Positions 7,382-53,801 of a DNA stretch of 64,000 nucleotides are shown one piece after another (position 1 is the stretch's first letter; the number at the start of each line of letters is the position of its first letter). The notes under the pieces are model-generated. The model was not told the DNA's origin and did not search any database. It was given only the letters and a program-made list of their open reading frames with translations. Both the position numbers and the translations under genes were made by a program. Origin of the DNA: Maribacter luteus (GTDB taxonomy: Bacteria; Bacteroidota; Bacteroidia; Flavobacteriales; Flavobacteriaceae); contig NZ_WKJH01000006.1 of assembly GCF_009674825.1 (NCBI RefSeq), positions 124,001 through 188,000 on the forward strand, read 5' to 3'.

Positions 7382-7447
7382 TTCGTCTTGTAACTATCGG
7401 GTTTCGTCTATTGTGGTTTCCGACTATATACATAGCATATACTTTTA
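7382..7447 (+). promoter_or_regulatory. LytTR-type direct repeats and -7 element before DUF4270 gene (site P1)
   Basis: TTCGTCTTG at 7382-7390 and TTCGTCTAT at 7403-7411 start 21 bp apart. A -7-like element, TACTTTTA, begins at 7440, 37 bp after the start of the second box. The same geometry recurs at six other places in the window. The first box contains GTTCGT, which fits the GTTN[AG][TG] core known for LytTR regulators. The ATG follows at 7466. Confidence 0.6.
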
Positions 7448-7465
7448 TGGTCAAATCAAATTTTT

Positions 7466-8761
7466 ATGAAGAATATACTTGGTATAGTTTGTTGTCTCGT
7501 GTTATGCGTTTCGTGTAGCGATGATATGTTGAACGATTCCGATTTTGTTGTAAGTGAAACCTTTACCGAAAGCAATATACGTGTACTACAAATAGATACC
7601 CTAACCACCAGATTGTCTACCATGAAGTTCGACAGTATAATTACCTCTCAAGGTTCTCGAATGTTGGTAGGTAAATACAATGACCCTATTTTCGGAAACA
7701 TGAAAAGTTCAAGTTTCATTGAAATGGTGCCGTCTTCCTATAGTATTGATGAGGATGCGGTATACGATAGTATCGTTTTTATACTTAGGTACGACAATTA
7801 CTATTACAACGATACCTTGGTACAGAATACCGTACATATAAAACCCTTGATCGAGGAACTTCAACCTGCTGACGATTCGGATTTCTATAATTCGAGCATC
7901 ATTGGTTTCGATGAGGAAGATCTTGGTTCATTGACCTTTGTTCCCAGGCCTTTGGAAAAAGATTCCTTAGCGGTAAGGTTAAGTGATGCTTTTGGTTCGG
8001 AATTATTCGATAAGCTCCAGGATCAAACCTTGACCGATTACGATGAGTTCGTTAACTATTTTCATGGGTTGACCATACGACCCGATGATAGTATTAACGG
8101 TACGATTCTCGGTTTTTCACTATCCTCCGATATGCGTCTTTACTACAGTATTTCGGGTGAAACCGATGTAGAAGAGTATTATACCGATTTTACGATTAAC
8201 ACCAGTAGTTCCCCCATTCCTTTTTTTAATCAGATATCTGCCGATGGACCCAATGAATATCTATCGGTATTAACAGATAATGAGGTGAATCTCTATAGTG
8301 AGGATTCGGAGGACCAAAGTTTTGTGCAGTCAGGTATGGGTGTTACCACACGTATAGAGTTTCCCTATTTAAAATCTGTAGGTGATATCGAGGGCCAGGG
8401 GACTTTACTTGGTGCTACTTTAAGAATAAAGCCTAAAGAAAGTTCTTATAATGATAATTTGATTTTGAGGGATACCCTTTCGGTTTACGTTGTTGACCAA
8501 AACAATGACCTGTTGGGAGACCTTGGGTTATATGCTATTTTAAACAAGAACAATGAAGAATTCAACGATATCTATTACGAAGTGTCATTAAGTAGTTATT
8601 TGGAAGATTTATTGGAAACCGATGAGGAATCGTCCGATGCTTTGATCTTACTGCCTTCGAATTACAATTCTACCTTAGACCGGTTTGTACTGGATGCGGA
8701 TTATGAGAATGAAGGTACACAACTAGAACTAATATATGCCATTTATGATGAAAATGAATAA
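7466..8761 (+). CDS. DUF4270-like lipoprotein
   Basis: A secreted lipoprotein of 431 residues with a signal ending in VSCSDD (Cys17). The body is beta-rich, with repeated DSIVFILRYDNYYY-like segments and a pattern (TTRLSTMKFDSI, GKYNDPIFGNMKSSSFIEM) that matches my memory of the DUF4270 family of Bacteroidota. The function is not known; members are usually found with outer-membrane proteins. Its last eight bases overlap the start of the barrel gene that follows, so the two are translationally coupled and may form a surface complex. It carries a strong candidate LytTR promoter immediately upstream. Confidence 0.75.
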   Translation: MKNILGIVCCLVLCVSCSDDMLNDSDFVVSETFTESNIRVLQIDTLTTRLSTMKFDSIITSQGSRMLVGKYNDPIFGNMKSSSFIEMVPSSYSIDEDAVYDSIVFILRYDNYYYNDTLVQNTVHIKPLIEELQPADDSDFYNSSIIGFDEEDLGSLTFVPRPLEKDSLAVRLSDAFGSELFDKLQDQTLTDYDEFVNYFHGLTIRPDDSINGTILGFSLSSDMRLYYSISGETDVEEYYTDFTINTSSSPIPFFNQISADGPNEYLSVLTDNEVNLYSEDSEDQSFVQSGMGVTTRIEFPYLKSVGDIEGQGTLLGATLRIKPKESSYNDNLILRDTLSVYVVDQNNDLLGDLGLYAILNKNNEEFNDIYYEVSLSSYLEDLLETDEESSDALILLPSNYNSTLDRFVLDADYENEGTQLELIYAIYDENE

Positions 8762-10001
8762 AACCAAACTTATTACAATCGTTGTCATCCTTTTGGCATT
8801 AAATTCCATCTCGGCCCAATCCGAAGGGTTAACCAGCTCTCCTTATTCTTTATATGGGTTAGGGGTCATTAATCAAACAAGTATTGGTTTTACCAATGGT
8901 TTAGGGTTTACCGGGATAGGTATAAAGACAGATTCACAGATCAATAACCTGAATGCCGCCAATTACGCATTGATACCACAAAACTCCTTTTACTATGATA
9001 TAGGTTTAAAAGGGGAGTATAATAGTTACAGTAATTCAACTGAAGACGAATCGAAAACCACCTTCAACTTTTCCAATTTGGCAGTTGCATTCCGTGTAGC
9101 CAAAGGATTGGGGGTAGGTATTTCCATGGTGCCCTATAGCGATGTTGGTTACTATTTGGTAGGGCTCGAAACGAACATCGAAGGTTCTAACGAAACTTTT
9201 GAAAGTAATGTTTCCGGAGTTGGTGGACTAAGTGACCTTAGGGTAAATATTGGTTACGCGGTATTGGATAACTTAAGGTTTGGATTAAGTACTTCCTTTT
9301 TATTCGGGAGTATAGAGGAAGAAGAATCATTTGTAATTAGTCAAAGTGCTTTAAGTACAGTAGAGGAAACAAATTATTCCGGTATTCGAATGGGATTAGG
9401 AATGCAGTTCGACATAACCGATAATATCACCATTGGTAGTACAATACAATTACCAACAAGCCTTGAAGGTAATGTTAAGCGTTCAGTGGTCAAGTATTTG
9501 GATGGTTCTGAAATTACCGTTGAGGATGACGATAGTAGTTCAACCGATGATTTTGATATGCCTTTGGAAGTCGGTATAGGTTTCAGTGCAAAATTCATGG
9601 AATCATTGACTGTAAGTGGGGATTACAAAAAGAACTATTGGAGTGAAACCGGACAAGAGGAAAACCTGGGCACCTATGAAGACCAGGATATCTATTCCAT
9701 TGGTCTAGAATATATTAAAGACCCTAAGAGTTATAAATATGGCCAACGAATTAGATATAGGGCCGGTTTTAATTATGATAATGGATACCTTGCAATTAAT
9801 GGAACGAAAGTGGACGGTTACAATATTACCGCAGGTATAGGATTGCCCATAGGTCAGGGGCTTAGGTCTATGTTGAACCTTTCGTACAGTTACGGCTCAA
9901 AAGGACAGATTCAAAATATACTCGTTAAGGAAAACTATCATATGCTTACCTTGAATTTAAGTTTGGCAGATCTATGGTTTCAAAAAAGAAAGATCAATTA
10001 G
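8754..10001 (+). CDS. Outer-membrane beta-barrel protein
   Basis: A predicted outer-membrane barrel of about 415 residues. From the ATG at 8754 it has a signal peptide ending ISAQ. Alternating-residue amphipathic strands rich in aromatic and Gly residues follow (YGLGVINQTS, GLGVGISMVPYSDVGYYLVG, RYRAGFNYDNGYLAI). The last residues, LNLSLADLWF, resemble a terminal beta-strand. Its overall pattern recalls FadL/OmpP1-like or PorV-like barrels, but I cannot place it in a family with certainty. In-frame Met codons at 8736, 8745 and 8748 are alternative starts. The overlap with the DUF4270 gene suggests the two products act together at the outer membrane. Confidence 0.75.
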   Translation: MNKTKLITIVVILLALNSISAQSEGLTSSPYSLYGLGVINQTSIGFTNGLGFTGIGIKTDSQINNLNAANYALIPQNSFYYDIGLKGEYNSYSNSTEDESKTTFNFSNLAVAFRVAKGLGVGISMVPYSDVGYYLVGLETNIEGSNETFESNVSGVGGLSDLRVNIGYAVLDNLRFGLSTSFLFGSIEEEESFVISQSALSTVEETNYSGIRMGLGMQFDITDNITIGSTIQLPTSLEGNVKRSVVKYLDGSEITVEDDDSSSTDDFDMPLEVGIGFSAKFMESLTVSGDYKKNYWSETGQEENLGTYEDQDIYSIGLEYIKDPKSYKYGQRIRYRAGFNYDNGYLAINGTKVDGYNITAGIGLPIGQGLRSMLNLSYSYGSKGQIQNILVKENYHMLTLNLSLADLWFQKRKIN

Positions 10002-10123
10002 TGCTGTTTCTTAGGTGATCCATGTCTTTTAAAATTGTGTTAATTCGGAGCAGGGTACTAAACCATTTGTTTTAAAAAACATCAAAAGACAAAATATAGA
10101 TAACAATTAAAAAATCCATTATT

Positions 10124-10687: not shown

Positions 10688-10717
10688 AAGTGTAAAAGAC
10701 TTTTTACCAGTAATATT

Positions 10718-39420: not shown

Positions 39421-40146
39421 ATGAAAACAATAATGTACGGCGTAAGGGGAGTTTTATTATTAACTTTTTTAGTATTAAATACATCCTGCAAGCTTCAAAC
39501 AAAACAAGATGATGGTCCACAAAAAACGCCTCCATCCCTTAATTCAAAGGGCGAATCCAAGGGAGAGGCTATTTACACATTTAAAGACGCCCCGGTTCCT
39601 ATAGAAAGAGGTGAATCCATAGCATTCAAATTGCCAAATGGGGAAACGCATTGGTATGAAGTGGTGTACCTGCCAGAAATGGGAATCAATTGGGTACAGG
39701 CAAAATCCCTAGCGGAGTTGGCAGGTGGTTACCTTGTTACGATTCATTCCGATTTGGAAAACGAATTTGTGTTCAATCTTATAAAGGACAAAAAATATTG
39801 GTACCAATGGGACGATTCCCATAATGGTGTTATGAGTGGTCCCTTTATTGGGGCTTTTCAGCCCTTGGGGGCCAAAGAGCCAGATGGAGGTTGGCAATGG
39901 GTCAGCGGTGAAGAATGGACCTATACCAATTGGTGTAAGGACGGGGTTAAAGAAGATCATGACCCTAGACCAAACGATCAGCCGAATGATGCTACAGGAA
40001 ATCAAAACGTGGGGGCATTTGGTGAGGTAAACGAACCAGTTGGTTATTGGGGGGATTTTCCTCAAAGATTTGGGTCGTTCAATGATTCGCACCCTGGTGG
40101 TGTATATGCATTCATTATTGAATATAACACCAAGAAAACCCAATAG
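39421..40146 (+). CDS. C-type-lectin-like domain lipoprotein
   Basis: A lipoprotein (signal ending NTSCKL) with a C-type-lectin-like domain in residues 75-235. The hallmarks are WVQAKSLAELAGGYLVTIHSDLENEFV (helices alpha-1 and alpha-2), GPFIGAFQP...EPDGGWQWVSGEEWTYTNW (WIGL-like region) and a final IIEY strand with PND and WGD segments that could bind Ca and sugar. The paired cysteines of animal C-type lectins are absent, as is usual in bacteria. It is probably a surface glycan-binding protein. It is the first gene after LytTR site P3 and starts the surface module. Confidence 0.82.
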   Translation: MKTIMYGVRGVLLLTFLVLNTSCKLQTKQDDGPQKTPPSLNSKGESKGEAIYTFKDAPVPIERGESIAFKLPNGETHWYEVVYLPEMGINWVQAKSLAELAGGYLVTIHSDLENEFVFNLIKDKKYWYQWDDSHNGVMSGPFIGAFQPLGAKEPDGGWQWVSGEEWTYTNWCKDGVKEDHDPRPNDQPNDATGNQNVGAFGEVNEPVGYWGDFPQRFGSFNDSHPGGVYAFIIEYNTKKTQ

Positions 40147-40772: not shown

Positions 40773-40838
40773 TTGGTAGATAAAAAAGCCCGGTTTGTTG
40801 ATTTTGATTTCTAATGGGGTAGAACAACTGTTTCTTTG
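40773..40838 (+). promoter_or_regulatory. LytTR-type direct repeats and -7 element before Spy-like gene (site P4)
   Basis: TTGGTAGAT at 40773-40781 and TTTGTTGAT at 40794-40802 start 21 bp apart; TTTCTTTG starts at 40831, 37 bp after the second box. The second box continues as GATTTTGATTT as at P3 and P6. The ATG follows 33 bases after the -7 element. Confidence 0.65.
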
Positions 40839-40871: not shown

Positions 40872-41264
40872 ATGAAAACAACGATTAAAAAAATTTTGAA
40901 TGCAGCACTTCTGTTAGGTGCGATAATGATTACAGGAACAACCCTAGCTCAAAGAGGAGGACAAGGCGGAGGACAACAAGGCCCACCACCTTTACCAACA
41001 TCCGATGAAATAGAGGAAATGGTGAGTGATATGGCCAAAGAGGTTTCCCTTGATGAAACCCAGGAAGCGGAAATTTTGGTGCTTTATAAAGCCCATTTTG
41101 AAGAAGTTGAGGATTTGACATCTTCAGGTAGGCCTGATAGGGATAAAATGGAGGCACTAAAAAGTGACTTTGAAGATGAGGTTAACGCCGTGTTGACCGA
41201 AGAGCAACAGAAATTGTTCAAGGCTTATCAAAAGAAGAATAGCCGACAAAAGGGCAAAAGGTAG
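40872..41264 (+). CDS. Spy/CpxP-like secreted protein
   Basis: A small periplasmic protein (130 residues from the ATG at 40872; the frame is open from 40836). A signal peptide ending TTLAQ is followed by a Gly/Gln/Pro-rich linker (RGGQGGGQQGPPP) and a helical domain of about 85 residues ending in LTEEQQKLFKAYQKK, an LTxxQ motif as in Spy/CpxP. Spy-type proteins are ATP-independent chaperones or sensors of envelope stress. It is the first gene of the unit with the DUF1566 and DUF4353 genes, so it may keep these exported proteins soluble. Confidence 0.75.
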   Translation: MKTTIKKILNAALLLGAIMITGTTLAQRGGQGGGQQGPPPLPTSDEIEEMVSDMAKEVSLDETQEAEILVLYKAHFEEVEDLTSSGRPDRDKMEALKSDFEDEVNAVLTEEQQKLFKAYQKKNSRQKGKR

Positions 41265-41301: not shown

Positions 41302-42549
41302 ATGATTATGGACCATAGTGCGTTTTATAAGATAACTAGACTTTCAGGGATTTACGTAATTCTCTTGGCTTTTTTAACTGTTCCGATAGCATGTAGTGAT
41401 GATGACGATACAACGGATTCAACGGATTCAACGGAAACTGAAACTTCAGAAACACCGACCGTAACTTTTGTTTTAACGGATACAGGACAAGATGTGTTTT
41501 ATGATGCCGATGGAAACGAAATTTCGGAACCAAGTGAGGAGGATGACTATTACGGTCAAGATGCACAGTATACTGGTAGGCAATCTTCGTTTCAAGATAA
41601 CGGGGACGGTACGGTAACCGATTTAAATACGGGATTGGTTTGGCAACAAACTCCGGATTATAGTAGATACAATTATTACGATGCTTTTGATTATGTAGAT
41701 CAATTGGAAGTAGGAGGATATGATGATTGGAGATTGCCCACGATTAAAGAATTGTATTCACTTTTGTATTCTAATGGAGAATTGGATGCAACGAGTACAT
41801 CAAACTCCCAGCCCTATCTCTATGATGAGTATTTTGATTTTGAATATGATTCCGGGGCATCTTATGCCGGGCAATATTGGTCGAGTACAAAGTATGTAAA
41901 AGGAGGATTGCAGACAGATAACATCGAAGGTGCGTTTGGATTTAATTTTGCTGACGGACATATAAAATCGTATGAAACAGGTTTGTATTTTGATGGTACA
42001 TCAGGTGTATTCGATCCAGGTTGTTTTGTTAGGGCCGTTCGCGGGGAAGAGGGTGTATATGGTGTAAATGACTTTATCGATAATGGAGATGGTACCGTTA
42101 CGGACAATGCTACAGGGTTGATGTGGCAACAAGTTGATGATGGTAATACTTATGATTGGGCAAATGCCTTAGCATATGCGAAAAACAGTGAGTTGGCCGG
42201 GTACACAGATTGGCGCTTACCCAATACCAAAGAATTACAGAGTATTGTCGACTACGAAAAAACCACGATTCCGGCTATTGATGAAACCTATTTTACCTGC
42301 ACCGATAGCGATAGTTGGTTTTGGACGAGTACAACACAAGGTGATTTTAAATACACAGCTTGTTATATAGCTTTTGGGTATGCATATAGTAGGGAAAATA
42401 GTTCTGCAACCGAATATTACGATTGGCATGGTTCAGGGGCGCAACGTTCCGATCCTAAAGCCGGTGACCCCGAAGATTACCTTCTTGAATCTGAAAATGC
42501 CGACGATTTATTACGGATAGAAAACTATGTACGCTTAGTGCGAAATTAA
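41302..42549 (+). CDS. DUF1566-like lipoprotein 1
   Basis: A lipoprotein of 415 residues: the signal ends VPIACSDDDD and is followed by an Asp/Thr/Ser-rich linker. Two DUF1566 (Lcl C-terminal-like) modules follow, each with the pattern DNGDGTVTDxxTGLxWQQ, then YDDWRLPTIKELYSLL or YTDWRLPNTKELQSIVDY, then a W(S/T)ST strand and a final VRAVRG or VRLVRN. This C-type-lectin-related fold is found in surface adhesins. Its neighbours are a Spy-like protein, a DUF4353 protein and a second DUF1566 protein. An ATG at 41308 is an equally possible start. Confidence 0.85.
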   Translation: MIMDHSAFYKITRLSGIYVILLAFLTVPIACSDDDDTTDSTDSTETETSETPTVTFVLTDTGQDVFYDADGNEISEPSEEDDYYGQDAQYTGRQSSFQDNGDGTVTDLNTGLVWQQTPDYSRYNYYDAFDYVDQLEVGGYDDWRLPTIKELYSLLYSNGELDATSTSNSQPYLYDEYFDFEYDSGASYAGQYWSSTKYVKGGLQTDNIEGAFGFNFADGHIKSYETGLYFDGTSGVFDPGCFVRAVRGEEGVYGVNDFIDNGDGTVTDNATGLMWQQVDDGNTYDWANALAYAKNSELAGYTDWRLPNTKELQSIVDYEKTTIPAIDETYFTCTDSDSWFWTSTTQGDFKYTACYIAFGYAYSRENSSATEYYDWHGSGAQRSDPKAGDPEDYLLESENADDLLRIENYVRLVRN

Positions 42550-42566
42550 GTAACTCTAAGTAACTC
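42547..42566 (+). repeat. Short tandem repeat in intergenic gap
   Basis: Two adjacent copies of the decamer AAGTAACTCT (with one base of ambiguity at the edges) follow the DUF1566 stop and precede CTTTGAG. It may be a slippage-prone spacer or part of a weak hairpin. I assign no function. Confidence 0.4.
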
Positions 42567-42595
42567 TTTGAGAAATTCATTTTAAGATTAAATCT

Positions 42596-44227
42596 ATGAG
42601 AAATTTAGCAATAAAAAAGTCAATCAGCCTTTACGGTATGTTCATTTTGCTTTCTTCATTAATGATATTGGCCGTTGGTTGTAGCAATGACGATGATGAT
42701 GTCGTGATTGATGATGACTCATCAGTTGTCGATGATGATACCACAGCATCAGGGGAAATCGTAATAACGGATACGAACACATCAGGAACGGCCGAAGGGG
42801 ATACTGATAACACTGGTGCCGATGAAGACGATCTTGTAGAAAACGCAACTTTTGAAAATACAGTGCAAATTGTATTTTCCGATGCCTCGGCTACCATTAC
42901 CAACCCTGTTCCTGATGATGTGGTAATTACACAAGACGGGGCCGATGTTACCATTAGTTCCTCTATTTCAGAAGTGGCTTACGAGGTGTCGGGTACAACG
43001 ACAGACGGGATGTTAAAAATTTATAGCGATAAAAAATTCAAATTATCGTTAAGTGATTTAAGTATTACGAATACCGAAGGTCCTGCGATTAACATCCAAT
43101 CATCGAAAACCATTTTTGTGATATTGGAAGGTACCAATAGCCTTACCGATGCATCAAGTTATAGCGATATCCCTGATGACGAAGACGCAAAAGCCGCATT
43201 TTTTAGTGAAGGGCAATTGGTTTTTAGCGGTTCGGGAGAACTTAATGTTGCAGGAAACTATAAGCATGGTATCGCAAGTGATGACTATGTTAGGGTAATT
43301 AGTGGTACGATAACAGTTACCGAAGCTTCATCCGATGCCATACACACCAATGATTACATAATTGTGGATGGGGGAACGCTCAATTTAACGGCAGATAGCG
43401 ATGGAATGGATTGTGAAGAAGGCTATATTATTATCAACGACGGAACCTTTACTATAAATGCCGTTGATGATGGAATCGTGGCTTCCTATGACATTGACGA
43501 AGAGGAAGAACCTGATGATTCCATTACGCCATATGTGACTATAAACGGTGGCGATTTTGTGATAAACAATTCCGAAGGGGAAGGGTTGGAATCTAAAGGG
43601 GCCATGACCATTAATGACGGTACCATAAATTTAAATTCCTATGATGATTGTATCAATGCCAATGGAATTTTATACATCAATGGAGGAAACATTTATGCGT
43701 ATAGTACACGTAATGATGCTATCGATAGTAATGCAGGGATCACCGTTACAGGAGGTACTACCATTGCCATAGCTACAAGGGTTGATGAACCGGACGGTAG
43801 TTTTGACTGCGATGATGATTCATTCAAAATAACTGGTGGGACAATTTTAGGATTGGGATTGAATACCTCATTTCCGACAGAAAGCCAAAGCACCCAAAAT
43901 TCTGTGATTTTTGATGGGGTGAGTGCAAACCAGCTATTGAATATTCAATCAGAAGATGGTACCGAAGCCCTTACTTATGAAGTTCCGAATAGCGTAATTA
44001 CGATAATTTATTCCAATGCGAAATTGGAAACAGGTGAAACGTATAATATCTATACGGGAGGAAGTGTAAGCAATGGTACTGAAATTAACGGATTATACAC
44101 CTCTGGTACTTACAGTGGTGGAACGGATTCAGGTGATTCGTTTACTGTCAACAGTATAGTTACACAAATTGGTGGAGAAATGGGCCCTACAGGTGAGGGT
44201 GGTGCTGGTGCTGGTGGCCGACCTTAA
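42596..44227 (+). CDS. DUF4353 (Cthe_2159-like) carbohydrate-binding lipoprotein 1
   Basis: A lipoprotein of 543 residues (signal ending AVGCSNDDDD, then a long Asp/Thr/Ser-rich linker). The body is a right-handed beta-helix-like repeat protein with short rungs such as GIASDDYVRVISGTITVTEAS, DAIHTNDYIIVDGGTLNLTADSDGMDCEEGYIIINDGTF and NGILYINGGNIYAYS. This matches the carbohydrate-binding Cthe_2159/DUF4353 family, reported to bind cellulose and polygalacturonate. The C-terminal 20 residues are Gly-rich. It lies between the two DUF1566 genes. A related protein is encoded at 48948-50687, next to VTC and CotH genes, an association known from other bacteria. Confidence 0.85.
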   Translation: MRNLAIKKSISLYGMFILLSSLMILAVGCSNDDDDVVIDDDSSVVDDDTTASGEIVITDTNTSGTAEGDTDNTGADEDDLVENATFENTVQIVFSDASATITNPVPDDVVITQDGADVTISSSISEVAYEVSGTTTDGMLKIYSDKKFKLSLSDLSITNTEGPAINIQSSKTIFVILEGTNSLTDASSYSDIPDDEDAKAAFFSEGQLVFSGSGELNVAGNYKHGIASDDYVRVISGTITVTEASSDAIHTNDYIIVDGGTLNLTADSDGMDCEEGYIIINDGTFTINAVDDGIVASYDIDEEEEPDDSITPYVTINGGDFVINNSEGEGLESKGAMTINDGTINLNSYDDCINANGILYINGGNIYAYSTRNDAIDSNAGITVTGGTTIAIATRVDEPDGSFDCDDDSFKITGGTILGLGLNTSFPTESQSTQNSVIFDGVSANQLLNIQSEDGTEALTYEVPNSVITIIYSNAKLETGETYNIYTGGSVSNGTEINGLYTSGTYSGGTDSGDSFTVNSIVTQIGGEMGPTGEGGAGAGGRP

Positions 44228-44263
44228 CGTAGAATAGTTTTAAAAAATGATAAAACAAGAAAG

Positions 44264-45502
44264 ATGAAAAAATCAGTTACAAAGAATACAATTGATTTAC
44301 TGAGCATGTTCATACTACTGTTTTCATTAATGACATTTGTTGTTGGATGCAGTGACGAAGATGATGTCGTAGATGATACCGATGAGGTTACAGATGATGA
44401 TAGTACTTCAAATGAAAATGAATTGGAAATCAATGATTTTCTACAAATAGCAACTGGGCAAATTACACTGTATGATGATGATGGAGAAGTCTTGGCGAGT
44501 GTGATTGAAGGTGAAGATTTCTATGGTCAAGATGCGACTTATTTAAAAGGGTCCGCCATGTCTTATACGGATAACGGAGATGGCACGGTTACGGATAATA
44601 ATACCGGGTTAATGTGGCAACAAGTACCTTCCTCTGATGATTATTCCTGGGCCGATGCTGTAACCTATTGCGATAATTTGGAGCTTTCCGGTTATGATGA
44701 TTGGCGTATGCCCACTTTAAAAGAGCTTTTTTCAATTAGTGAATTTAGTTCGGGATGGCCATATTTAGATACCGGGTATTTTAATTTGGCAAGTGGTGAG
44801 GTAACCAAAGATGAACAGTTTTGGGCCAATAACTATTATGTGGGTACAACTGTGGAAGGCGGTAGTAATGCTGCTTTTGGTGTAAACCATGTCACTGGGC
44901 ACATTAAGGCATATTCTGCGACGGCCAGTGGTCCCGTTGGTGGTAAATATGTAAGGGCCGTTCGAGGTGGGGATTACGGTACCAATGCCTATACCGATAA
45001 TGGGGATGGTACTATTAGTGATGCTAATACCGGTTTAATGTGGGCACAAGATGATGATGGGGTTATCATGGACTGGAAAGATGCTTTGGCCTATGCCGAA
45101 AGTTCAGAATTGGCAGGATATTCCGATTGGCGACTACCAAATGTGAAAGAACTTCAAGGTATTGTGGATTATTCATATTCCCCTACAGCCACTGATAGTG
45201 AGAATGTTGGTCCGGCCATTGACCCATTATTTACTTGTTCACAATTACCGAGTGATGTTCAAGAAGCGGGTTATGATGATGATTATGGATATTACTGGAC
45301 AGGTACCTCGGCCCCGTTTACAAGTGGTGAACCTTATTACTATGCTTGGTATGTGGCCTTTGGTAGGGCGGTAAATGGCGAAGGAGAGGATTTTCATGGT
45401 GCAGGGGCCGTTCGGTTCGATACCAAGGATGAAGATGGGCCTGCAGGTGAAGATGCCGAGCGTTATTATAATTATGTAAGATTGGTAAGAAATATAAATT
45501 GA
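44264..45502 (+). CDS. DUF1566-like lipoprotein 2
   Basis: A lipoprotein of 412 residues with two DUF1566 modules (DNGDGTVTDNNTGLMWQQVPSSDDYSWADAV, YDDWRMPTLKELFSI; DNGDGTISDANTGLMWAQDDDG, YSDWRLPNVKELQGIVDYS) and an end VRLVRNIN. It is a clear paralogue of the protein encoded at 41302-42549. Its signal (MFILLFSLMTFVVGCS) resembles that of the DUF4353 protein upstream more than that of its own paralogue, which suggests exchange of N-terminal parts. It is the last gene of the unit started at P4; repeat copy C2, with a terminator, follows after four bases. Confidence 0.85.
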   Translation: MKKSVTKNTIDLLSMFILLFSLMTFVVGCSDEDDVVDDTDEVTDDDSTSNENELEINDFLQIATGQITLYDDDGEVLASVIEGEDFYGQDATYLKGSAMSYTDNGDGTVTDNNTGLMWQQVPSSDDYSWADAVTYCDNLELSGYDDWRMPTLKELFSISEFSSGWPYLDTGYFNLASGEVTKDEQFWANNYYVGTTVEGGSNAAFGVNHVTGHIKAYSATASGPVGGKYVRAVRGGDYGTNAYTDNGDGTISDANTGLMWAQDDDGVIMDWKDALAYAESSELAGYSDWRLPNVKELQGIVDYSYSPTATDSENVGPAIDPLFTCSQLPSDVQEAGYDDDYGYYWTGTSAPFTSGEPYYYAWYVAFGRAVNGEGEDFHGAGAVRFDTKDEDGPAGEDAERYYNYVRLVRNIN

Positions 45503-45505
45503 TCA

Positions 45506-45584
45506 CCTATGGTTGAATGATTGTTTGGTTGGGTTAGTTTAGTAAAAGGCACGTTAGTTTGGTTAGGACTGGCGTGCCTTTTTT
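45506..45584 (+). repeat. Three-copy terminator repeat, copy C2
   Basis: It begins CCTATGGTT four bases after the DUF1566 stop, contains TGTTTGGTTGGGTTAGTTTA and ends with arms AAAAGGCACG and CGTGCCTTTT plus a T-run. It therefore acts as the terminator of the unit. Unlike C1 and C3 it has no LytTR-type promoter of its own; a short RNA would have to come from mRNA processing. Confidence 0.8.
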
Positions 45585-46359: not shown

Positions 46360-46510
46360 AACCAACGACATTTCCGTAAAATTAAGTCGGGAACTGGGTT
46401 ATGACTTAGATGGTTAATACAAACCTTATAGAACTGAAATCCATTGCTACATCTTTTATGAAGGTAATACATAGGCGTATACGGTTTCTTTCATCGATAA
46501 AATCATGTAA

Positions 46511-46576
46511 TTGATTGATAAGCTGGTTGAGTTGGTCGATTCCTTTTCTGGGTTGAAGGGTGTATCCTTAAATTTA
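46511..46576 (+). promoter_or_regulatory. LytTR-type direct repeats before repeat copy C3 (site P5)
   Basis: TTGATTGAT at 46511-46519 and TTGGTCGAT at 46532-46540 start 21 bp apart; the -7-like TAAATTTA begins at 46569, 37 bp after the second box. No open frame follows before the C3 terminator. Confidence 0.5.
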
Positions 46577-46579: not shown

Positions 46580-46740
46580 TGTATTAGTTTAGGAAGCTGG
46601 GAGAAACTGATAATCGATTCTACGAGCTCCGTATCTTAAATTGAAAATATAAATAGAGCGCCTATGGTTGAATAAATGTTTGGTTGAGTTAGTTTAGTAA
46701 AAGGCATGCTGTTTTCGAAAGAAATACAGCGTGCCTTTAT
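46580..46740 (+). ncRNA. Predicted LytTR-driven small RNA ending in repeat C3
   Basis: Inferred transcript of about 160 nt from just after site P5 to the T-rich end of repeat C3. Its 3' half matches the predicted C1 RNA, whereas the 5' part is unrelated. No coding frame of useful length is present. The start is inferred from promoter geometry only. Confidence 0.42.
46661..46740 (+). repeat. Three-copy terminator repeat, copy C3
   Basis: It begins CCTATGGTTGAAT, contains TGTTTGGTTGAGTTAGTTTA and ends with a hairpin of arms AAAGGCATGCTG and CAGCGTGCCTTT (one T-G wobble). The arms differ from C1 and C2 but pair fully, so the structure is conserved over sequence. Confidence 0.8.
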
Positions 46741-46777
46741 TATTCTCATTAAAATCCTCTTTTGAAGACGATTCAAT

Positions 46778-46843
46778 TTCGTTGATGAAATCTGCCAGTT
46801 CGTTGATTTTGATTTAACCTTAGCTTAACCTTGACTTAATTTG
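46778..46843 (+). promoter_or_regulatory. LytTR-type direct repeats and -7 element before VTC gene (site P6)
   Basis: Two identical boxes TTCGTTGAT at 46778-46786 and 46799-46807 start 21 bp apart, the best pair in the window. TTAATTTG starts at 46836. The second box extends to GTTCGTTGATTTTGATTT as at P3 and P4. The VTC ATG lies 19 bases after the -7 element. Confidence 0.68.
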
Positions 46844-46862: not shown

Positions 46863-47600
46863 ATGAGACATATTATTAGTGCCTTTGAGAGTATTACACT
46901 AGAAGAGATGAATAACGTTTCCTTAATGAAAAGGACCGATACGAAATTCATTATCCATGAAAAGGATTTGAAAGAGGTTTTAAAAAAAATCAGGGACGAT
47001 TACAGGGTCCTTGAGATAGATGGCCACAGAATCATGACCTACTCTTCGCTTTATTTTGATACACCTACCAAGAAGTTCTATTATGACCATCACAATGGTA
47101 AGGTAAATAGGACCAAGGTAAGGATGCGGAAATATGTTGAATCCGATATCTGTTTTCTCGAAGTAAAACAAAAAGATGGCAAAGGCAAGACAAACAAGAC
47201 CAGGACATCGATTAATGATTTTGAAACGGAATTATCCAAAGAATCTGTTGGTTTTATCCAAGACGTTACCAGTAAATCTTATGATCTGGAACCTATTATC
47301 TGGAATAAGTTCAACCGTATTACACTGGTGAACAAAACCGCTATGGAACGTTTGACCATAGATTTGAACCTTTCCTTTAAAATCAACAACTCTTTTAAGA
47401 CCTACAATAACCTCGTAATTATCGAGGTGAAACAAGAAAGGTTCAATAGAACATCACCCGTTGTTCGGCAATTGAAAGAGAAACAGACAAATCCTTACGG
47501 ACTTAGTAAATATTGTATCGGTATGATCAGTGTTTATGATGATATAAAATACAACCGCTTTAAAAAGAAACTATTGAAAATCAATAAAATAACTGCCTAA
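46863..47600 (+). CDS. VTC-domain polyphosphate polymerase-like protein
   Basis: A cytoplasmic protein of 245 residues with a VTC domain, a tunnel-shaped fold that in yeast Vtc4 makes polyphosphate from ATP. Basic and acidic residues of the tunnel fit the family: MKRTDTKFI (near 22-30), YSSLYFDTP, RTKVRMRKY (about 83-91), CFLEVKQKDGKGK and VIIEVKQERF. Bacterial members are widely encoded next to DUF4956, CotH and DUF4353 genes, as here. Polymerase activity is likely but not proven for this branch. It opens the unit behind LytTR site P6 and precedes the DUF4956 gene by six bases. Confidence 0.88.
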   Translation: MRHIISAFESITLEEMNNVSLMKRTDTKFIIHEKDLKEVLKKIRDDYRVLEIDGHRIMTYSSLYFDTPTKKFYYDHHNGKVNRTKVRMRKYVESDICFLEVKQKDGKGKTNKTRTSINDFETELSKESVGFIQDVTSKSYDLEPIIWNKFNRITLVNKTAMERLTIDLNLSFKINNSFKTYNNLVIIEVKQERFNRTSPVVRQLKEKQTNPYGLSKYCIGMISVYDDIKYNRFKKKLLKINKITA

Positions 47601-47606
47601 TTACTT

Positions 47607-48209
47607 ATGGAATTTTTAGACATCCCCCTTTTCGACGACGATTTTTTTAAAATGATGTTCAGGTTCATCCTGAACTTCACTTTCTTGACCGTAATCATAC
47701 GTTTTGTTTATTACCCCTCTTCAAAGCGTAAAGATTATGTCTTTACTTACTATCTCATTAGTCTTATTGTCTTTTTTCTCTGCTTCACATTAAAGAAATA
47801 TAATCTGGATATAGGTATGGCCCTTGGGTTGTTCGCTATTTTCGGAATTATACGTTATAGGACCGATCCCATCGATATTAAGGAAATGACCTATCTGTTC
47901 GTGGTCATAGGCGTTTCTGTAATCAATTCATTGGCGAACAAGAAAATGAGCTATGCCGAGATTTTAGCCGCAAATGCACTGATTATTTTCATTTTGATCA
48001 TTATCGAGAGGTATTGGGCCTTGAAACAAGAAGAATCAAAATTCATTGTGTACGAGAATATCGAGAACATAAAACCTGAAAATTATGAAATACTTAAGAG
48101 TGATCTTGAGCATAGGACAGGTTTGACCATAAACAAGGTCAATATCGGTAAGGTTGATTTCTTAAAGGATACCGCTGAAGTGACCATATTCTATTTCAAA
48201 AACAACTAA
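47607..48209 (+). CDS. DUF4956 membrane protein
   Basis: A 200-residue integral membrane protein with four hydrophobic helices (about 18-36, 45-62, 68-82, 94-112 and 118-132 partly merged) and a small cytoplasmic C-terminal alpha/beta domain. The LGLFAIFGIIRYRTDPIDIKEMTYLFVVIGVSVINSL block is characteristic of DUF4956. It regularly accompanies VTC polymerases and may pass polyphosphate or another polymer across the membrane or anchor the polymerase. The exact role is unknown. The gene lies between VTC and DUF2490 with gaps of six and 19 bases. Confidence 0.87.
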   Translation: MEFLDIPLFDDDFFKMMFRFILNFTFLTVIIRFVYYPSSKRKDYVFTYYLISLIVFFLCFTLKKYNLDIGMALGLFAIFGIIRYRTDPIDIKEMTYLFVVIGVSVINSLANKKMSYAEILAANALIIFILIIIERYWALKQEESKFIVYENIENIKPENYEILKSDLEHRTGLTINKVNIGKVDFLKDTAEVTIFYFKNN

Positions 48210-48228
48210 TAACCCAATATAGATCAAT

Positions 48229-48951
48229 ATGAAATCAATCAACAAGTTGCAATCGGGTTATATGGTATTGATAGCCACGCTAATGATGGGAACTTCGGGA
48301 ATTTCCCAAAGCGTGGATACCGATGACCTTGAAAGCTGGACATCCATTGGCCTTAAATACAAATTGAACAAAAAATGGTCGTTCACTTTAGAGGAACAAC
48401 TGAGATTGGATGAGAACATTTCGGAAATAAGCAAGTATTTCACTGAACTTGATGCCGAATATTCCATTTCAAAAAGTTTCGATATCGGGGGTGGTCTCAG
48501 ATATATCAGGAATAATGATAATGAAGGTAATATACAAGGGTATGAAAACCACCTGCGATTTCATGTTGATGCAACTTACAAGCACAAAATAAATGCCTTT
48601 TCACTTAAATATAGGCTGCGTTATCAAAATAAGAATGAATTGGGTGTAGACAATTCCGAAGGTGATTATGCGAATCAGAATATTCGATTCAAAACTTCGG
48701 TGGAATATGATTTTAAGAATTGGAAGTTAGATCCGGAGTTTTCCGCGGAAATATTCAATCACTTTGAAGAAGGCGACGACAATGGTTTCAGCAAATATAG
48801 ATTCACCTTAGGAACCGATTATAAAATAAAAGATTATGGAAAAATCGGCTTGTTCTATAGAATGGAGAAAGAATTGAATGTCGATTTGCCCGAAACGACG
48901 CATATAATCGGATTTAAGTACACATATACCATTAAAAACAATCAAAAATGA
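48229..48951 (+). CDS. DUF2490-family outer-membrane barrel
   Basis: A predicted outer-membrane beta-barrel of 240 residues with a signal (TSGISQ) and amphipathic strands (ESWTSIGLKYKLNKKWSFTLEEQLRLDE, FDIGGGLRYIRN, FSLKYRLRYQNKNELG). It ends in a short strand with aromatic residues (IIGFKYTYTIKNN). The pattern fits DUF2490. It could form the exit pore for material handled by the VTC-DUF4956 pair, but that is inference. Its stop overlaps the start of the next gene by four bases. Confidence 0.8.
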   Translation: MKSINKLQSGYMVLIATLMMGTSGISQSVDTDDLESWTSIGLKYKLNKKWSFTLEEQLRLDENISEISKYFTELDAEYSISKSFDIGGGLRYIRNNDNEGNIQGYENHLRFHVDATYKHKINAFSLKYRLRYQNKNELGVDNSEGDYANQNIRFKTSVEYDFKNWKLDPEFSAEIFNHFEEGDDNGFSKYRFTLGTDYKIKDYGKIGLFYRMEKELNVDLPETTHIIGFKYTYTIKNNQK

Positions 48952-50687
48952 AAACAAGAAACCTATCGGTCCTATCCTACATAGGAATGTTATTGTTCGC
49001 AATATTTACTTTCATGGGTTGCTCTGATGATCAAGACACAATATACGACTCCGATTCATCGGATTTGGAAACAACCGATGAAACTATTTCTAACGGTGAT
49101 GATGAAATAACGATTGCTGAAGTAGGGGATACCCATGAAGAGGACAGTGATTATATTTGGGACGCATCAAGTGTGGTTTACATTACCTTAAGCGGTTCAT
49201 CAATTACAGTTGATGGGGAAGGTGCCACGGTGGATGGTACCGAGGTAACCATAGCCTCGGCTGGCAATTATGAGATAACGGGAAGTCTGTCAGACGGTCA
49301 GGTAATCGTAGATACAGACGACGACGAAACCGTTCGGCTAATTTTAAATGAAGTTGATATAACCAACACTTCCGGTGCGCCTTTGAATATTGCCAGTGCC
49401 GAAAAAACCATTGTTATACTCAAAGAGAATACCATTAATTATTTAACCGATACCAACAACTATGTTTTCGATGACGAGGAGGATGAGCCCAATGCAGCTC
49501 TTTTCAGTGATGATGACCTTACCATATATGGGGAGGGTGCACTTGTTGTAGATGCCAATTACAATGATGGTATTACAAGTAAGGACGGTTTGGTGATCGC
49601 CAGTGGTAATATTACCGTTAATGCAGTGGATGACGGTATTCGTGGTAAGGATTATCTGAACATTAAAGGCGGTTATATCGTGGTAAACGCGGAAGGCGAT
49701 GGTTTAACCTCGGACAATGATGAAGACACAAATACAGGATGGATATTAATCGATGACGGTACTTTTGTAGTCACCGCAGATGAAGATGGTATTGTGGCGG
49801 CATCCGTAGTTGATGTGGAGTATGGTGACTTTACTATCGTAACCGGTGGGGGACATACAAGTTCGTTAGGGGCAGATGATACGGCCAAAGGCATAAAGTC
49901 TGGTGGTAACATTACGATAGAAAATGGTATTTTCAATATCGATTCCGCAGATGACAATATACATGCGAATTATGATGTTACCATTACTACGGGGACATTT
50001 ACATTAGCAACAGGGGATGATTCCATCCATGCCGACGATGCGGTCGAAATCAATGGAGGTACAATTAACATTACGGAAGGTGTTGAGGGTATTGAGGCTC
50101 CCGATATTATAATCAGTGATGGGGAAATAAATATCAATACAAGTGATGATGCTATAAACGCAGCCGGCAACACCAATAATTTCATGTATATAAATGGGGG
50201 GTACATCGTTATTACAAGTGGTGGTGATGGACTCGATTCCAATGGCGATATTGAAATGACAGGTGGTACGGTAATCATCAATGGCCCAACATCCCAAAGT
50301 AATAGTCCCATAGATTATGACGGTACGTTCGGTTTGGACGGTGGGTTCCTTGTTGCCTCGGGTTATGGGTCTAACATGGATGAAGCAGGAAGCAGCTCAT
50401 CCGATCAGTATTCCGTATTGGTTAAATTGTCAACTACCCAATCTTCAGGAAGCCTATTTCATATCCAAAACAGTTCACAGGAAACTATTTTGACTTTTGC
50501 CCCGGGAAAAAATTATAAATCGATCGTATTCTCATCTCCTGGCCTGAAAACGGGAACCTACGATATTTATATAGGTGGCAGTTCAACGGGTACTGTATCC
50601 GATGGGGTTTATGAAAATGGCACTTATACACCAGGAACATTATATGAAAGCTTTACGGTTTCCGATAAAGTAACGACCGTAAACTGA
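48948..50687 (+). CDS. DUF4353 (Cthe_2159-like) carbohydrate-binding lipoprotein 2
   Basis: A lipoprotein of 579 residues (signal ending FMGCSDD). Beta-helix rungs with NGG/DDG turns (GIRGKDYLNIKGGYIVVNAEG, GIFNIDSADDNIHANYDVTITTGTF, DDAINAAGNTNNFMYINGGYIVI) place it with the DUF4353/Cthe_2159 carbohydrate-binding proteins. It is a paralogue of the product of 42596-44227, without the Gly-rich tail. Its start overlaps the DUF2490 stop by four bases, so the two are probably co-translated, as if barrel and surface protein were made in fixed ratio. Confidence 0.86.
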   Translation: MKTRNLSVLSYIGMLLFAIFTFMGCSDDQDTIYDSDSSDLETTDETISNGDDEITIAEVGDTHEEDSDYIWDASSVVYITLSGSSITVDGEGATVDGTEVTIASAGNYEITGSLSDGQVIVDTDDDETVRLILNEVDITNTSGAPLNIASAEKTIVILKENTINYLTDTNNYVFDDEEDEPNAALFSDDDLTIYGEGALVVDANYNDGITSKDGLVIASGNITVNAVDDGIRGKDYLNIKGGYIVVNAEGDGLTSDNDEDTNTGWILIDDGTFVVTADEDGIVAASVVDVEYGDFTIVTGGGHTSSLGADDTAKGIKSGGNITIENGIFNIDSADDNIHANYDVTITTGTFTLATGDDSIHADDAVEINGGTINITEGVEGIEAPDIIISDGEININTSDDAINAAGNTNNFMYINGGYIVITSGGDGLDSNGDIEMTGGTVIINGPTSQSNSPIDYDGTFGLDGGFLVASGYGSNMDEAGSSSSDQYSVLVKLSTTQSSGSLFHIQNSSQETILTFAPGKNYKSIVFSSPGLKTGTYDIYIGGSSTGTVSDGVYENGTYTPGTLYESFTVSDKVTTVN

Positions 50688-50820
50688 AAAAAATGAAAGA
50701 ATGTTCTCGTTGATAGGGTAGAAAAAAATGGTTGGGACTACTAGACCATTGAGCCCTATGAATGGGAAATACGTTCTTTTCCAACTATTTAAAAATACTA
50801 ACTAAATCAGTAAATATATC

Positions 50821-52266
50821 ATGACGACAATTTTTAAAAAAACATCAACTTTTTGGGGTTTGGTGCTAATGGTATCCCTTTTATTTGTAAGATGCTCAAG
50901 TGACAACAATGATTCTTATGATTCTACAGATGGTACGGATTCATCAGATTCGGATACGACCGTGGTTATCGATGACACGGATTTTGATCCTGTGGATTGG
51001 ACGACCGAGACGCATAGTAACGATGTGGATCCAGACTTTGATGAGGTTTTTGATGATACTGAAGTAAAGCGATTCGATTTTGTTATTTCAGAGGAGAATT
51101 GGGAGGCCATGATGGCGGATATGACGGATCTATATGGAACCTTTGGGCGTAATGGTGGGGGAGGTAGCTCAAGTTTTTCCGATGACGACCCTATTTTCGT
51201 ACCGGGATCGGTTTTTTACAATGGTAAAGAATGGTACAAGGTGGGACTTCGTTTTAAAGGGAATTCAAGTTTGCAAAGCGCTTGGCAGGCAGGTATTCTG
51301 AAACTGGCATTTAAAATGGATTTTGACGAGTTTGAGGATGATTATCCGCAAATCAAGAACCAACGTTTTTATGGGTTTAAAAAACTCAGCTTAAAGAACA
51401 ATTATAATGATAGCTCTTTTTTAAGGGAGAAAGTCGCGGCCGAGGTGTTCAAGAATTCTGGTTTGGCCGTTTCGAACACTGGTTTTTACACCCTATATGT
51501 AGATCATGGTGATGGCCCCGAGTATTTTGGGTTGTACACCTTGGTCGAGGAAGTTGATAATACGGTAATCGATACCCAATTCACTAGTGATGATGGTAAT
51601 CTTTATAAACCGGAAGATTATGGGGCGAGTTTTGCTTATGGTACCTTTAATGAGGAAGGTTTTGAGAAAAAGACCAATGAGGATGAGGCCGATTGGAGTG
51701 ATATTGAAAGTCTTTTTTCGGCACTGCATGCAACCAATAGAACAAGTGAGCCGGAAACCTGGAGGTCTAATTTGGAGGCTGTATTTGATGTGGACACTTT
51801 TTTGAATTACCTCGCTGTAAATACGGTTATCCAAAATTGGGATACCTACGGTAGAATGGAACATAATTATTATCTATACAATAACCCGGACAATAATTTA
51901 CTGACCTGGATACCTTGGGATAATAACGAAGCTTTACAAGATGGGAAACAAGGAGGTTCATTGAACCTTGATTTTTCAGATGTTTCCAGTTCCACATGGC
52001 CGTTGATAGGGTACTTATATCAAGATGAGGTTTATAAGGCGAAGTACGATGCTTATGTTCAGGCTGTAATAGATGGCCCTTTTGAAACTAATTATATACA
52101 AGGCGTTTATGATACGTATTCCAGCTTAGTGGAACCCTATGCGACCACTGAGGTAAGCGGTTACTCATTTTTATACAATAGCAGTTCATTTTATTCGGCT
52201 ATTTCCACACTTAAATCACATGCTTCGAGCCGGGCATCGGCAGCAAATAGTTATTTGTCCAATTAA
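50821..52266 (+). CDS. CotH-kinase-family lipoprotein
   Basis: A lipoprotein of 481 residues (signal ending FVRCSSDNND, then an Asp/Ser/Thr-rich linker). The body matches the CotH family, atypical protein kinases known from spore coats: VGLRFKGNSSLQSAW, GFKKLSLKNNYNDSSFLREKVAAEVFKNSG, YFGLYTLVEEVDN, NLYKPEDYG and YNNPDNNLLTWIPWDNNEAL. The last contains the conserved Asp/Asn residues of the active site. It is exported, so it would act at the cell surface. It lies 133 bases after the DUF4353 gene; a degenerate TTNGTWGAT-like box (50706) is not properly spaced. The hairpin at 52315 may end the unit. Confidence 0.88.
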   Translation: MTTIFKKTSTFWGLVLMVSLLFVRCSSDNNDSYDSTDGTDSSDSDTTVVIDDTDFDPVDWTTETHSNDVDPDFDEVFDDTEVKRFDFVISEENWEAMMADMTDLYGTFGRNGGGGSSSFSDDDPIFVPGSVFYNGKEWYKVGLRFKGNSSLQSAWQAGILKLAFKMDFDEFEDDYPQIKNQRFYGFKKLSLKNNYNDSSFLREKVAAEVFKNSGLAVSNTGFYTLYVDHGDGPEYFGLYTLVEEVDNTVIDTQFTSDDGNLYKPEDYGASFAYGTFNEEGFEKKTNEDEADWSDIESLFSALHATNRTSEPETWRSNLEAVFDVDTFLNYLAVNTVIQNWDTYGRMEHNYYLYNNPDNNLLTWIPWDNNEALQDGKQGGSLNLDFSDVSSSTWPLIGYLYQDEVYKAKYDAYVQAVIDGPFETNYIQGVYDTYSSLVEPYATTEVSGYSFLYNSSSFYSAISTLKSHASSRASAANSYLSN

Positions 52267-52349: not shown

Positions 52350-52372
52350 AAATAAGTAGTTTTAAACAAAAC

Positions 52373-52894: not shown

Positions 52895-52980
52895 ATGACA
52901 CCTCAATAGGGAAAAATAATGAAATGGTTTGCCCCATATGTCGGCAACCAAAAATAGATGGAACAGCGTAGGAAAATGAT

Positions 52981-53643
52981 ATGGGAAATGCATCTAAATT
53001 AATTTTGGCAATGGTCTTGGCCTTTGGTTTTTCCAGTGCCAAAGCCTTTAATCCGTATACTTCATCGGTAATTTTGGAGAATATGGATAATGAATGGTTC
53101 TTGCAGATATCCACTTCACAGGTCAGTGCCTATGAGGTGTTGGAGGATTATTACGACACTGAGGATATTTCCGTACTTTCCATAGAGGCTTATAACAAAA
53201 AATACATAGAGTATTTGAAGGCCCATATGTACATAGTAGCAGATGATAAGGCGGTAGAACTTTTGCCTGTAGGGGTTCATTTGGGAAGTCAACAAGCCGA
53301 AGTACGCTTTGTTTTAAAGGGTATGTCAGGGAATTTCAACCAGTTGTTTTTGAAACTAGACGTTTTTGAAGAAAACGGTTCACAACAAAATGTAACCGGG
53401 TTTTTCAGCAAAAATGGAAATGTTAGTAGCATATTGAATGCTGATAATGAGTTTTCCATGAACATTATCTATAAGGATGGAAAGTATATACTTTCCGAAG
53501 GTTTCTCCTGGACTATTTTCCATATCCTATATTTAAGTATTTTATTGATGTTTACACTGGTGATGTTTTTTGTTCTTCGTTATCACACCAATAAGAGATC
53601 AATAACTTATAAAGGACCTGTGCTGGTTTATAATCGTCAATAA
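52981..53643 (+). CDS. Exported membrane-anchored protein of unknown function
   Basis: A 220-residue protein with a signal-like N-terminus (FGFSSAKAFNPY), a beta-rich extracytoplasmic domain (residues 25-165, including YFDVxxNEWFLQIS-like strands) and one C-terminal transmembrane helix (about 178-198) ending in a short basic tail. It somewhat resembles DUF6702-like proteins, but I do not recognise it firmly. It follows the PepSY gene and precedes the ferredoxin operon, so a link with envelope redox or metal handling is possible. The ATG at 52981 is preceded by an AT-rich gap of 86 bases. Confidence 0.62.
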   Translation: MGNASKLILAMVLAFGFSSAKAFNPYTSSVILENMDNEWFLQISTSQVSAYEVLEDYYDTEDISVLSIEAYNKKYIEYLKAHMYIVADDKAVELLPVGVHLGSQQAEVRFVLKGMSGNFNQLFLKLDVFEENGSQQNVTGFFSKNGNVSSILNADNEFSMNIIYKDGKYILSEGFSWTIFHILYLSILLMFTLVMFFVLRYHTNKRSITYKGPVLVYNRQ

Positions 53644-53668
53644 AAGTGGTTTGTCAATTTTTAATTTG

Positions 53669-53687
53669 CTACTTAACCCTTAAGTAG
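53669..53687 (+). promoter_or_regulatory. Short inverted repeat upstream of ferredoxin operon
   Basis: CTACTTAA and TTAAGTAG form a perfect 8-bp inverted repeat around CCC, 28 bases before the first box of site P7. It could be the end of the previous transcript or an operator for another regulator. Confidence 0.4.
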
Positions 53688-53714
53688 TGTTCTAATACCT
53701 TGTTCAAGATTGTT

Positions 53715-53801
53715 TTGTTGTCGTGATTTCATATTTGGTTGATAAAGTTCTATAGTCCGTCGATTACAATTTTACTACGCACCAATCTCCCGTATCTTCG
53801 A
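53715..53801 (+). promoter_or_regulatory. Triple LytTR-type repeats and TATCTTCG -7 element before ferredoxin operon (site P7)
   Basis: Three boxes, TTTGTTGTC (53715), TTGGTTGAT (53736) and TCCGTCGAT (53757), follow each other at exactly 21-bp intervals. A good -7 element, TATCTTCG, starts at 53794, again 37 bp after the start of the last box. The ferredoxin ATG follows 25 bases downstream. The same TATCTTCGATAA string occurs shortly before the third sensor kinase gene. Confidence 0.65.

Follow-up and report, generated by a model that had tools for sequence, protein, structure and literature searches.

We examined if seven promoter-like sequences within a 64,000-nucleotide stretch of the Maribacter luteus genome (4.65 Mb) are the operators of one regulon and, if so, to which regulator they answer. 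This whole stretch (contig NZ_WKJH01000006.1, positions 124001-188000) is called the window, and coordinates without another label refer to it. A sequence-only reading had proposed that the seven sites, with 9-bp boxes of consensus TTNGTWGAT whose starts are 21 bp apart, form a LytTR regulon, and that three LytTR regulators are encoded here; these were confirmed (genes 4029, 11449 and 57742, three of the 18 LytTR genes of the genome). A LytTR regulon is still the best reading of the sites, in a narrower form: six of them are, with good confidence, predicted to be operators of a single LytTR two-component system whose genes stand last in the cluster, and pair with its regulator only; the seventh, at 7382, belongs to a second LytTR region. 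The proposed pair is:

56618 to 57745, plus strand: LytS-type histidine kinase, proposed sensor (Pfam His_kinase, PF06580, E 3.4e-23).
57742 to 58458, plus strand: LytTR response regulator, proposed to activate the regulon (LytTR E 6.9e-22, Response_reg E 1.7e-20).

The kinase gene and the start of the regulator gene overlap by 4 bp. The regulator, designated RR57742, has a C-terminal LytTR domain (PF04397) at residues 141-232, above cut-off, and its receiver residues D8, D9, D54 and K99 were invariant across 9 aligned sequences. Stretches or genomes with and without its orthologue are designated RR+ and RR-; for a stretch, RR- means that the orthologue was absent from the stretch read.

All seven sites were present, and in 7/7 the -7-like octamer began 37 bp past the start of the last box. 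The TTNGTWGAT consensus described six of them (0-3 mismatches over the 16 fixed positions of the pair) and failed for the site at 7382 (6 mismatches of 16). The start given as 53715 should read 53714, and this site has three boxes instead of two. The six consensus sites are as follows:

39137 to 39202, plus strand: box pair 39137/39158 with -7-like GTTCTTTG at 39195; two pair mismatches, exact TTTG; downstream lies a short unit without a long open reading frame (ORF).
39333 to 39398, plus strand: box pair 39333/39354 with -7-like TTCCTTTG at 39391; three pair mismatches, exact TTTG; upstream of the lipoprotein gene 39421.
40773 to 40838, plus strand: box pair 40773/40794 with -7-like TTTCTTTG at 40831; perfect pair, no mismatches.
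46490 to 46576, plus strand: boxes 46490 (weak), 46511 and 46532 with -7-like TAAATTTA at 46569; two mismatches in the main pair; downstream lies a short unit without a long ORF; counterpart promoters at L073 9658 and L101 17670.
46778 to 46843, plus strand: box pair 46778/46799 with -7-like TTAATTTG at 46836; perfect pair, no mismatches; counterparts ahead of VTC at L073 9916, L074 9917 and L077 9916.
53714 to 53800, plus strand: triple boxes 53714/53735/53756 with -7-like TATCTTCG at 53793; two mismatches in each overlapping pair; counterparts at L073 15409, L074 16192 and L101 14387.

The full geometry was scored over 20 positions, i.e., the 16 fixed in the TTNGTWGAT pair plus TTTG. Allowing 3 mismatches of 20, the window held six plus-strand matches (the six sites) and one on the minus strand, compared with a mean of 0.06 and a maximum of 1 for both strands in 300 dinucleotide shuffles of the window. 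Across the whole genome there were 19 such matches versus 4 for the reversed pattern; 7 of the 19 lay inside the window and 6 of these were the sites above. When the pair was scored without the -7 element, six plus-strand pairs with up to 2 mismatches were found at 21 bp (two being the overlapping pairs of the triple, and 39333 not included), whereas each of the other spacings between 10 and 60 gave 2 at most (mean 0.5), and the minus strand of the window had no such pair at 21 bp. The pair alone is weak at the 3-mismatch level, with 12 at 21 bp against a mean of 4.96 and a maximum of 10 at other spacings. A third box, 21 bp further upstream, was seen at several promoters in the window and in relatives. 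For almost all LytTR regulators, the literature describes a pair of direct or inverse repeats, 9-11 nt long and separated by 11-13 nt (PMC4847170), and in the LytTR regulatory systems the repeats are mostly 12 bp apart and just upstream of the promoter (PMC6193735); the boxes here are 9-bp direct repeats with a 12-bp spacer. Geometry of this type is thus already published for LytTR promoters, and the match in box size, spacer and promoter-proximal position supports the reading of the sites as a LytTR regulon.

Spacing and phase were assessed in 11 RR+ stretches from 10 genomes (G299 supplies two), hand-trimmed to the regulon stretches and totaling 125,251 bases, the window included. Among 34 pairs with up to 2 mismatches, 20 had exact TTTG 41 positions past the start of the last box, and no other offset between 25 and 59 had it in more than 1, so that one constant distance of the repeats to the promoter just downstream is strongly favored; when one TTTG mismatch was tolerated the counts were 27/34 versus at most 10. 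The flavobacterial sigma-A -7 consensus TAnnTTTG spans -12 to -5 (PMC9723704), by which the boxes would fall near -70 and -49. In a profile prepared from 33 of 34 full-pattern matches (one was omitted because fewer than three of its four TTTG positions matched), a stretch rich in T occupied offsets 14-16, counted from the start of the last box; a -33 element would be expected there.

We then compared stretches and genomes with and without RR57742. The VTC-DUF4956-DUF2490 genes occur in relatives both with and without the kinase-regulator pair. For six VTC loci of relatives, those of M. polysiphoniae (L073; the nearest named relative found, VTC protein identity 95%), M. polysaccharolyticus (L074) and Lutibacter citreus (L077) had an RR57742 orthologue (89, 87 and 74% identity, respectively) and many sites; L075, L076 (Allomuricauda) and L078 had no orthologue in the stretch read, L076 having a 45%-identical relative. 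No 21-bp pair with up to 1 mismatch was detected in L075, in L078 (both searched in that stretch only) or in L076, the last assessed through L106, which is from the same genome. Sites of similar kind occurred in L073, L074, L077, G299 and G258, each with the orthologue nearby (73-90% identity); in G299 and G258, which lack VTC but carry the regulator and CotH, the sites were still present. On the regulon strand, 20 pairs with up to 1 mismatch were found at 21 bp in the 11 RR+ stretches, with 0 or 1 at each of the other spacings from 12 to 33, and 11 RR- VTC loci (215,076 bases) had none at 21 bp. Within the genus, the orthologue was in 7/12 genomes and VTC in 4/12; five of the seven RR+ genomes together had 20 matches to the full pattern at up to 2 mismatches (17 inside the regulon cluster and 3 outside it), the 5 RR- genomes had 1, and the reversed pattern had 2 in all 12. 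With up to 3 mismatches of 20, the RR+ stretches L101-L105 had 4, 2, 0, 0 and 4 matches, the ten RR- stretches L106-L115 had 2 together, L116 (downstream of the regulator in G300) had 1, and the surroundings of the 15 LytTR genes outside the window had 2 in 258,712 bases. At least 4 of 397 genomes of the wider family carried the orthologue; at most 7 candidates were scored per genome, so that orthologues were possibly missed. Since the sites track the RR57742 orthologue, the cognate regulator of the six consensus sites is most likely the local LytS/LytTR pair 56618-58458.

The best surviving alternative is that regulator 4029 or 11449, or several of the three in common, bind the sites. The three regulators of the window all have LytTR domains and align throughout, and the promoter facing the 4029 gene set begins with the box TTGGTAGAT and uses the identical pitch and offset, making cross-recognition possible. 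Yet the Allomuricauda locus has a triple-box promoter of this kind and the 45%-identical regulator, and no regulon-type site stands ahead of its VTC operon; with the sites following the 57742 orthologue, we regard this alternative as improbable.

From the sites, with their observed geometry, conservation and co-occurrence with RR57742, we infer binding, activation, phosphorylation, operon extents and signal as follows. The membrane kinase would sense an envelope signal and phosphorylate RR57742, which would bind a pair, or at times a triple, of 9-bp boxes spaced by two helical turns and lying immediately upstream of a degenerate -33 region, and would thereby recruit sigma-A RNA polymerase to the -7 element at fixed phase. 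The predicted targets are the lectin-like, LTXXQ-like, Lcl_C and Cthe_2159 lipoproteins, the VTC-DUF4956-DUF2490-Cthe_2159-CotH genes, the ferredoxin/ferric-reductase/flavoprotein set, and two short RNA units. Direct repeats by themselves name neither the protein nor the sign of control, and RR57742 could repress here, or the boxes could serve another DNA-binding protein. Repressors more usually overlap the core promoter. Boxes at fixed phase just upstream of the core promoter hold, instead, the usual position of LytTR-type activators (PMC6193735, PMC2838878), and we judge repression or another protein to be a little less probable still than binding by the other two regulators. The weakest alternative, that promoter-gene cassettes were recently duplicated and the boxes are read by no factor, draws on the paralogues in the cluster, on a longer 38-nt stretch common to three promoters and on an apparent Lcl gene remnant between promoters in L077, and is very improbable, because the pattern holds across genera and because the stretches between boxes and -7 element diverge widely at most sites while boxes and -7 element persist.

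Several observations weigh against assigning the six sites to RR57742 as its operators. The RR+ stretches come mostly from one genus, so shared ancestry contributes to the co-occurrence, and the consensus was derived from the window, which is itself 1 of the 11 RR+ stretches. The fragmented RR+ genomes G303 (68% complete) and G306 had no full-pattern match genome-wide, and the RR+ loci of other genera, L135 and L136, had degraded sites only (3 and 4 mismatches of 20). When 2 mismatches were allowed, the RR- loci gave 2 plus-strand and 3 minus-strand pairs at 21 bp, the level of other spacings. The -7 elements begin mostly with TT, not TA. No site with up to 4 mismatches lies directly ahead of 56618 on its strand, and autoregulation would need read-through from the ferredoxin genes. 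The sole site detected in G386, at L136 15167 (2 pair mismatches), stands immediately ahead of its kinase-regulator genes, a placement that would fit autoregulation.

The genes following the sites, and predicted to be controlled from them, are:

39421 to 40146, plus strand: lipoprotein with a weak C-type-lectin match (Pfam Lectin_C E 0.00047, below cut-off).
40872 to 41264, plus strand: LTXXQ-like small protein (Pfam LTXXQ E 0.00053, below cut-off).
41302 to 45502, plus strand: Lcl_C lipoprotein (41302), Cthe_2159-type protein (42596) and Lcl_C lipoprotein (44264), by Pfam.
46863 to 52266, plus strand: VTC, DUF4956, DUF2490, Cthe_2159 and CotH genes, by Pfam.
53827 to 56478, plus strand: 4Fe-4S ferredoxin, ferric-reductase-like membrane protein and FAD flavoprotein with a Tat-like N-terminus, by Pfam.

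Pfam matches above cut-off include Lcl_C, Cthe_2159, VTC, DUF4956, DUF2490, CotH and PepSY_TM, and also 4Fe-4S ferredoxin, Ferric_reduct and FAD-binding. Paralogues are numerous in the cluster, with two Lcl_C and two Cthe_2159 genes in the window and four LTXXQ-like matches in L074. In streptococci and clostridia, CotH, polyphosphate polymerase and DUF4956 genes are found together beside pel polysaccharide operons (PMC7112168). The regulon may have a role in the envelope or matrix. As side observations, the spacer of the VTC promoter has an 11-bp repeat (TTAACCTTAGC TTAACCTTGAC TTAA) at 46814-46839 that is similar in three Maribacter (the window, L073 9952-9977 and L074 9953-9978); it resembles an OmpR/PhoB-type site, which would suit a polyphosphate polymerase gene. 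At L073 12104-12352 the second Cthe_2159 gene was matched in its C-terminal part only, with a LytTR promoter directly after.

Two of the seven sites had been described as preceding repeats with terminators, and short repeated elements followed by terminator hairpins indeed lie downstream of 39137 and 46511. A 21-nt core has three copies in the cluster (one with 1 mismatch), each followed by a hairpin and T-run:

39230 to 39314, plus strand: putative RNA element CCTATGG...GTTTGGTTGAGTTAGTTTAGT, then a terminator hairpin; copy w39 of alignment A1.
45503 to 45584, plus strand: putative RNA element and terminator in the 3' untranslated region (3'UTR) of the Lcl_C gene 44264; copy w45 of A1.
46660 to 46744, plus strand: stand-alone putative RNA element and terminator; copy w46 of A1; counterparts at L073 9818 and L101 17510.

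Two copies thus stand alone behind the LytTR promoters 39137 and 46511, and the third lies in the 3'UTR of 44264; each short unit runs from its promoter-like site to a hairpin ending near 39314 or 46744, with no plus-strand ORF of 80 amino acids or more listed. The terminator helix covaries, 5 of 16 pairs being changed on both sides, and 98.1% of cells were paired versus 94.5% in shuffles. The stand-alone unit behind 46511 is common to the window, L073 and G299, with 20/21 core positions identical in all three; parts of the promoter are likewise retained, as are a few blocks upstream, and the remainder drifts. Core copies in relatives numbered two each in L073, L074 and G299, with one diverged copy in G258. 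Close copies were confined to this cluster, here and in relatives; among 397 family genomes (a sample without G299, G300 and G301), this one alone yielded the 20-nt core at up to 1 mismatch. Weaker matches (2-3 mismatches) occur elsewhere in the same genome and in G299, G301 and G304. By eye, six off-cluster near-matches (L071, L072, L164, L165, L166 and L160 at about 1501) stand directly before hairpin-like sequences, one of the six coming from the regulator-less genome G304, and L071, L164 and L166 resemble one conserved unit across three genomes.

A functional small RNA from the short units is possible. Rfam gave no match at gathering score in the window, and pairing of a 23-nt core with 272 translation starts (window plus 13 genome stretches) showed no excess over chance: the best duplex was -20.3 kcal/mol, the best of each of 40 shuffled cores averaging -18.9 with an extreme of -23.0, and the best-scoring cluster gene in the window, VTC, was unremarkable at -14.5 kcal/mol. 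An apparent Lcl_C remnant at about L077 8110-8300 (gene start and end with an early stop and no middle), between LytTR promoters, suggests that the stand-alone units may be what is left of lipoprotein genes since lost. All 10 copies in A1 have, by eye, an ATG, 2-4 codons and a stop from column 69, the frame being kept despite length changes. Three other explanations of the core were dropped. As a general pre-terminator motif, GAGTTAGTTTAG (up to 2 mismatches) occurred at 2 of 105 predicted terminators in 322,712 bases (the same window plus 13 stretches), both in the cluster, the terminator finder having passed over the third core copy at 46678; inspection by eye showed a hairpin after 4 of the 15 occurrences of the 12-mer, the fourth of these being near 6200 on the minus strand. 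Being rare before terminators, it is not a general terminator feature. Antitermination by pairing of the upstream GTGCCT with the terminator arm failed on inspection by eye, as several copies (w45, L074a) are unable to form the pairing, and so did LytTR binding within the core, where the best 21-bp pairs have 4 mismatches.

The site at 7382 lies in the second LytTR region, the features of which are:

4029 to 7247, minus strand: second LytTR gene set, with a kelch-like lipoprotein, a small protein, a histidine kinase and the LytTR regulator (4029).
7261 to 7347, minus strand: boxes 7347, 7326 and 7305 with TAGTTTTG at 7268, the octamer at exactly 37 bp.
7382 to 7447, plus strand: repeat resembling TTNGTCTNN/TTNGTCTAT at 21 bp with TACTTTTA at 7440, divergent to the triple and ahead of gene 7466.

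The minus-strand triple faces the kelch-like gene and the kinase-regulator pair ending at 4029. Triple and octamer were found in 6 of 8 sequences searched, i.e., five Maribacter (M. luteus itself, G299, G301, G300 and G258) and L076, and were not found in L075 and L077, which need not hold a 4029-type operon. The 7382 repeat was found in the four same-genus relatives G299, G301, G300 and G258, with letters similar though not identical and with pitch and 37-bp offset kept, and not in the 3 remaining of the 8 sequences. Two paralogous LytTR systems, their box letters partly different, thus appear to use the 21/37 geometry. Gene 7466-8761, which follows the 7382 repeat, has a weak NCBIfam BamH match (34.5 bits versus a cut-off of 420), from which the second system may touch outer-membrane assembly.

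We considered the 21/37 geometry as a rule for the whole LytTR family, and dropped it. Three box patterns gave no occurrence at spacing 21 and offset 37 in the 13 stretches around the 15 other LytTR genes plus the window outside the two regions. An unbiased repeat scan (main cluster excluded, 7261-7447 included) counted 23 at this cell, where the average cell had 12.65 (sd 5.1) and the neighboring cell (21,38) reached 32; under three stricter settings the counts were 3, 3 and 10 (means 1.26, 0.8 and 4.75), and other cells exceeded them. There being no clear excess around the other 15 LytTR genes and beyond the two regions, no family-wide rule was demonstrated.

Among known systems, VirR is a LytTR-type regulator, and Agr likewise has a LytTR regulator, AgrA, with a regulatory RNA target, RNAIII, as is proposed for the window; Agr differs in its peptide quorum sensing, and RNAIII is long and structured. 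The targets of E. coli YpdB and BtsR are single transport genes, unlike the envelope-protein cluster here. These two do resemble the window in being LytS/LytTR-type kinase-regulator pairs (PMC4847170, PMC5552118), and YpdB binds tandem repeats in the yhjX promoter (PMC4847170). Clostridium perfringens VirR/VirS also has two direct repeats at a fixed position upstream of the promoter, with helical phase important and a regulatory RNA (VR-RNA) among its targets, but has a shorter spacer as defined there (7-8 nt), a -35 element, and unrelated targets and RNA (PMC2838878). Streptococcus mutans HdrRM/BrsRM has direct repeats, mostly with a 12-bp gap, immediately ahead of the promoter, and in systems of this type repeat length, spacing and location are conserved and the letters are not; as described there, it differs in pairing the regulator with a membrane inhibitor and no histidine kinase, in its letters, and in its bacteriocin targets (PMC6193735). 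Bacteroides LRS-like operons, of the same phylum, have direct repeats ahead of a TATCTTTG -7 element, but the repeats are 11 bp long and 11 bp apart with other letters, and the regulators have transmembrane segments (PMC6193735). Titles and abstract openings among the literature matches listed named no mapped LytTR regulon in Flavobacteriaceae.

The largest claim that could be drawn from this locus is a joint one, namely that a clade-specific, LytTR-driven small RNA family arose from the Lcl_C 3'UTR (a G/U-rich 21-nt core plus terminator, in 3'UTR and stand-alone copies) as an independently evolved Bacteroidota counterpart of AgrA-RNAIII and VirR-VR-RNA, and that a 21/37 promoter grammar is common to paralogous LytTR systems with specificity set by the box letters alone. 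We hold this as speculative, and would sooner expect some part of it to fail than the whole to stand.

For an organism in which LytTR genes are numerous (18 in the genome), the analysis names one concrete predicted regulator with a list of its targets, and spells out the operator and its fixed geometry to the promoter. It would link the CotH/VTC/DUF4956 surface module, the Lcl_C lipoproteins and an electron-transfer set to one signal, and may offer a clean test case for LytTR-driven small RNAs in Bacteroidota.

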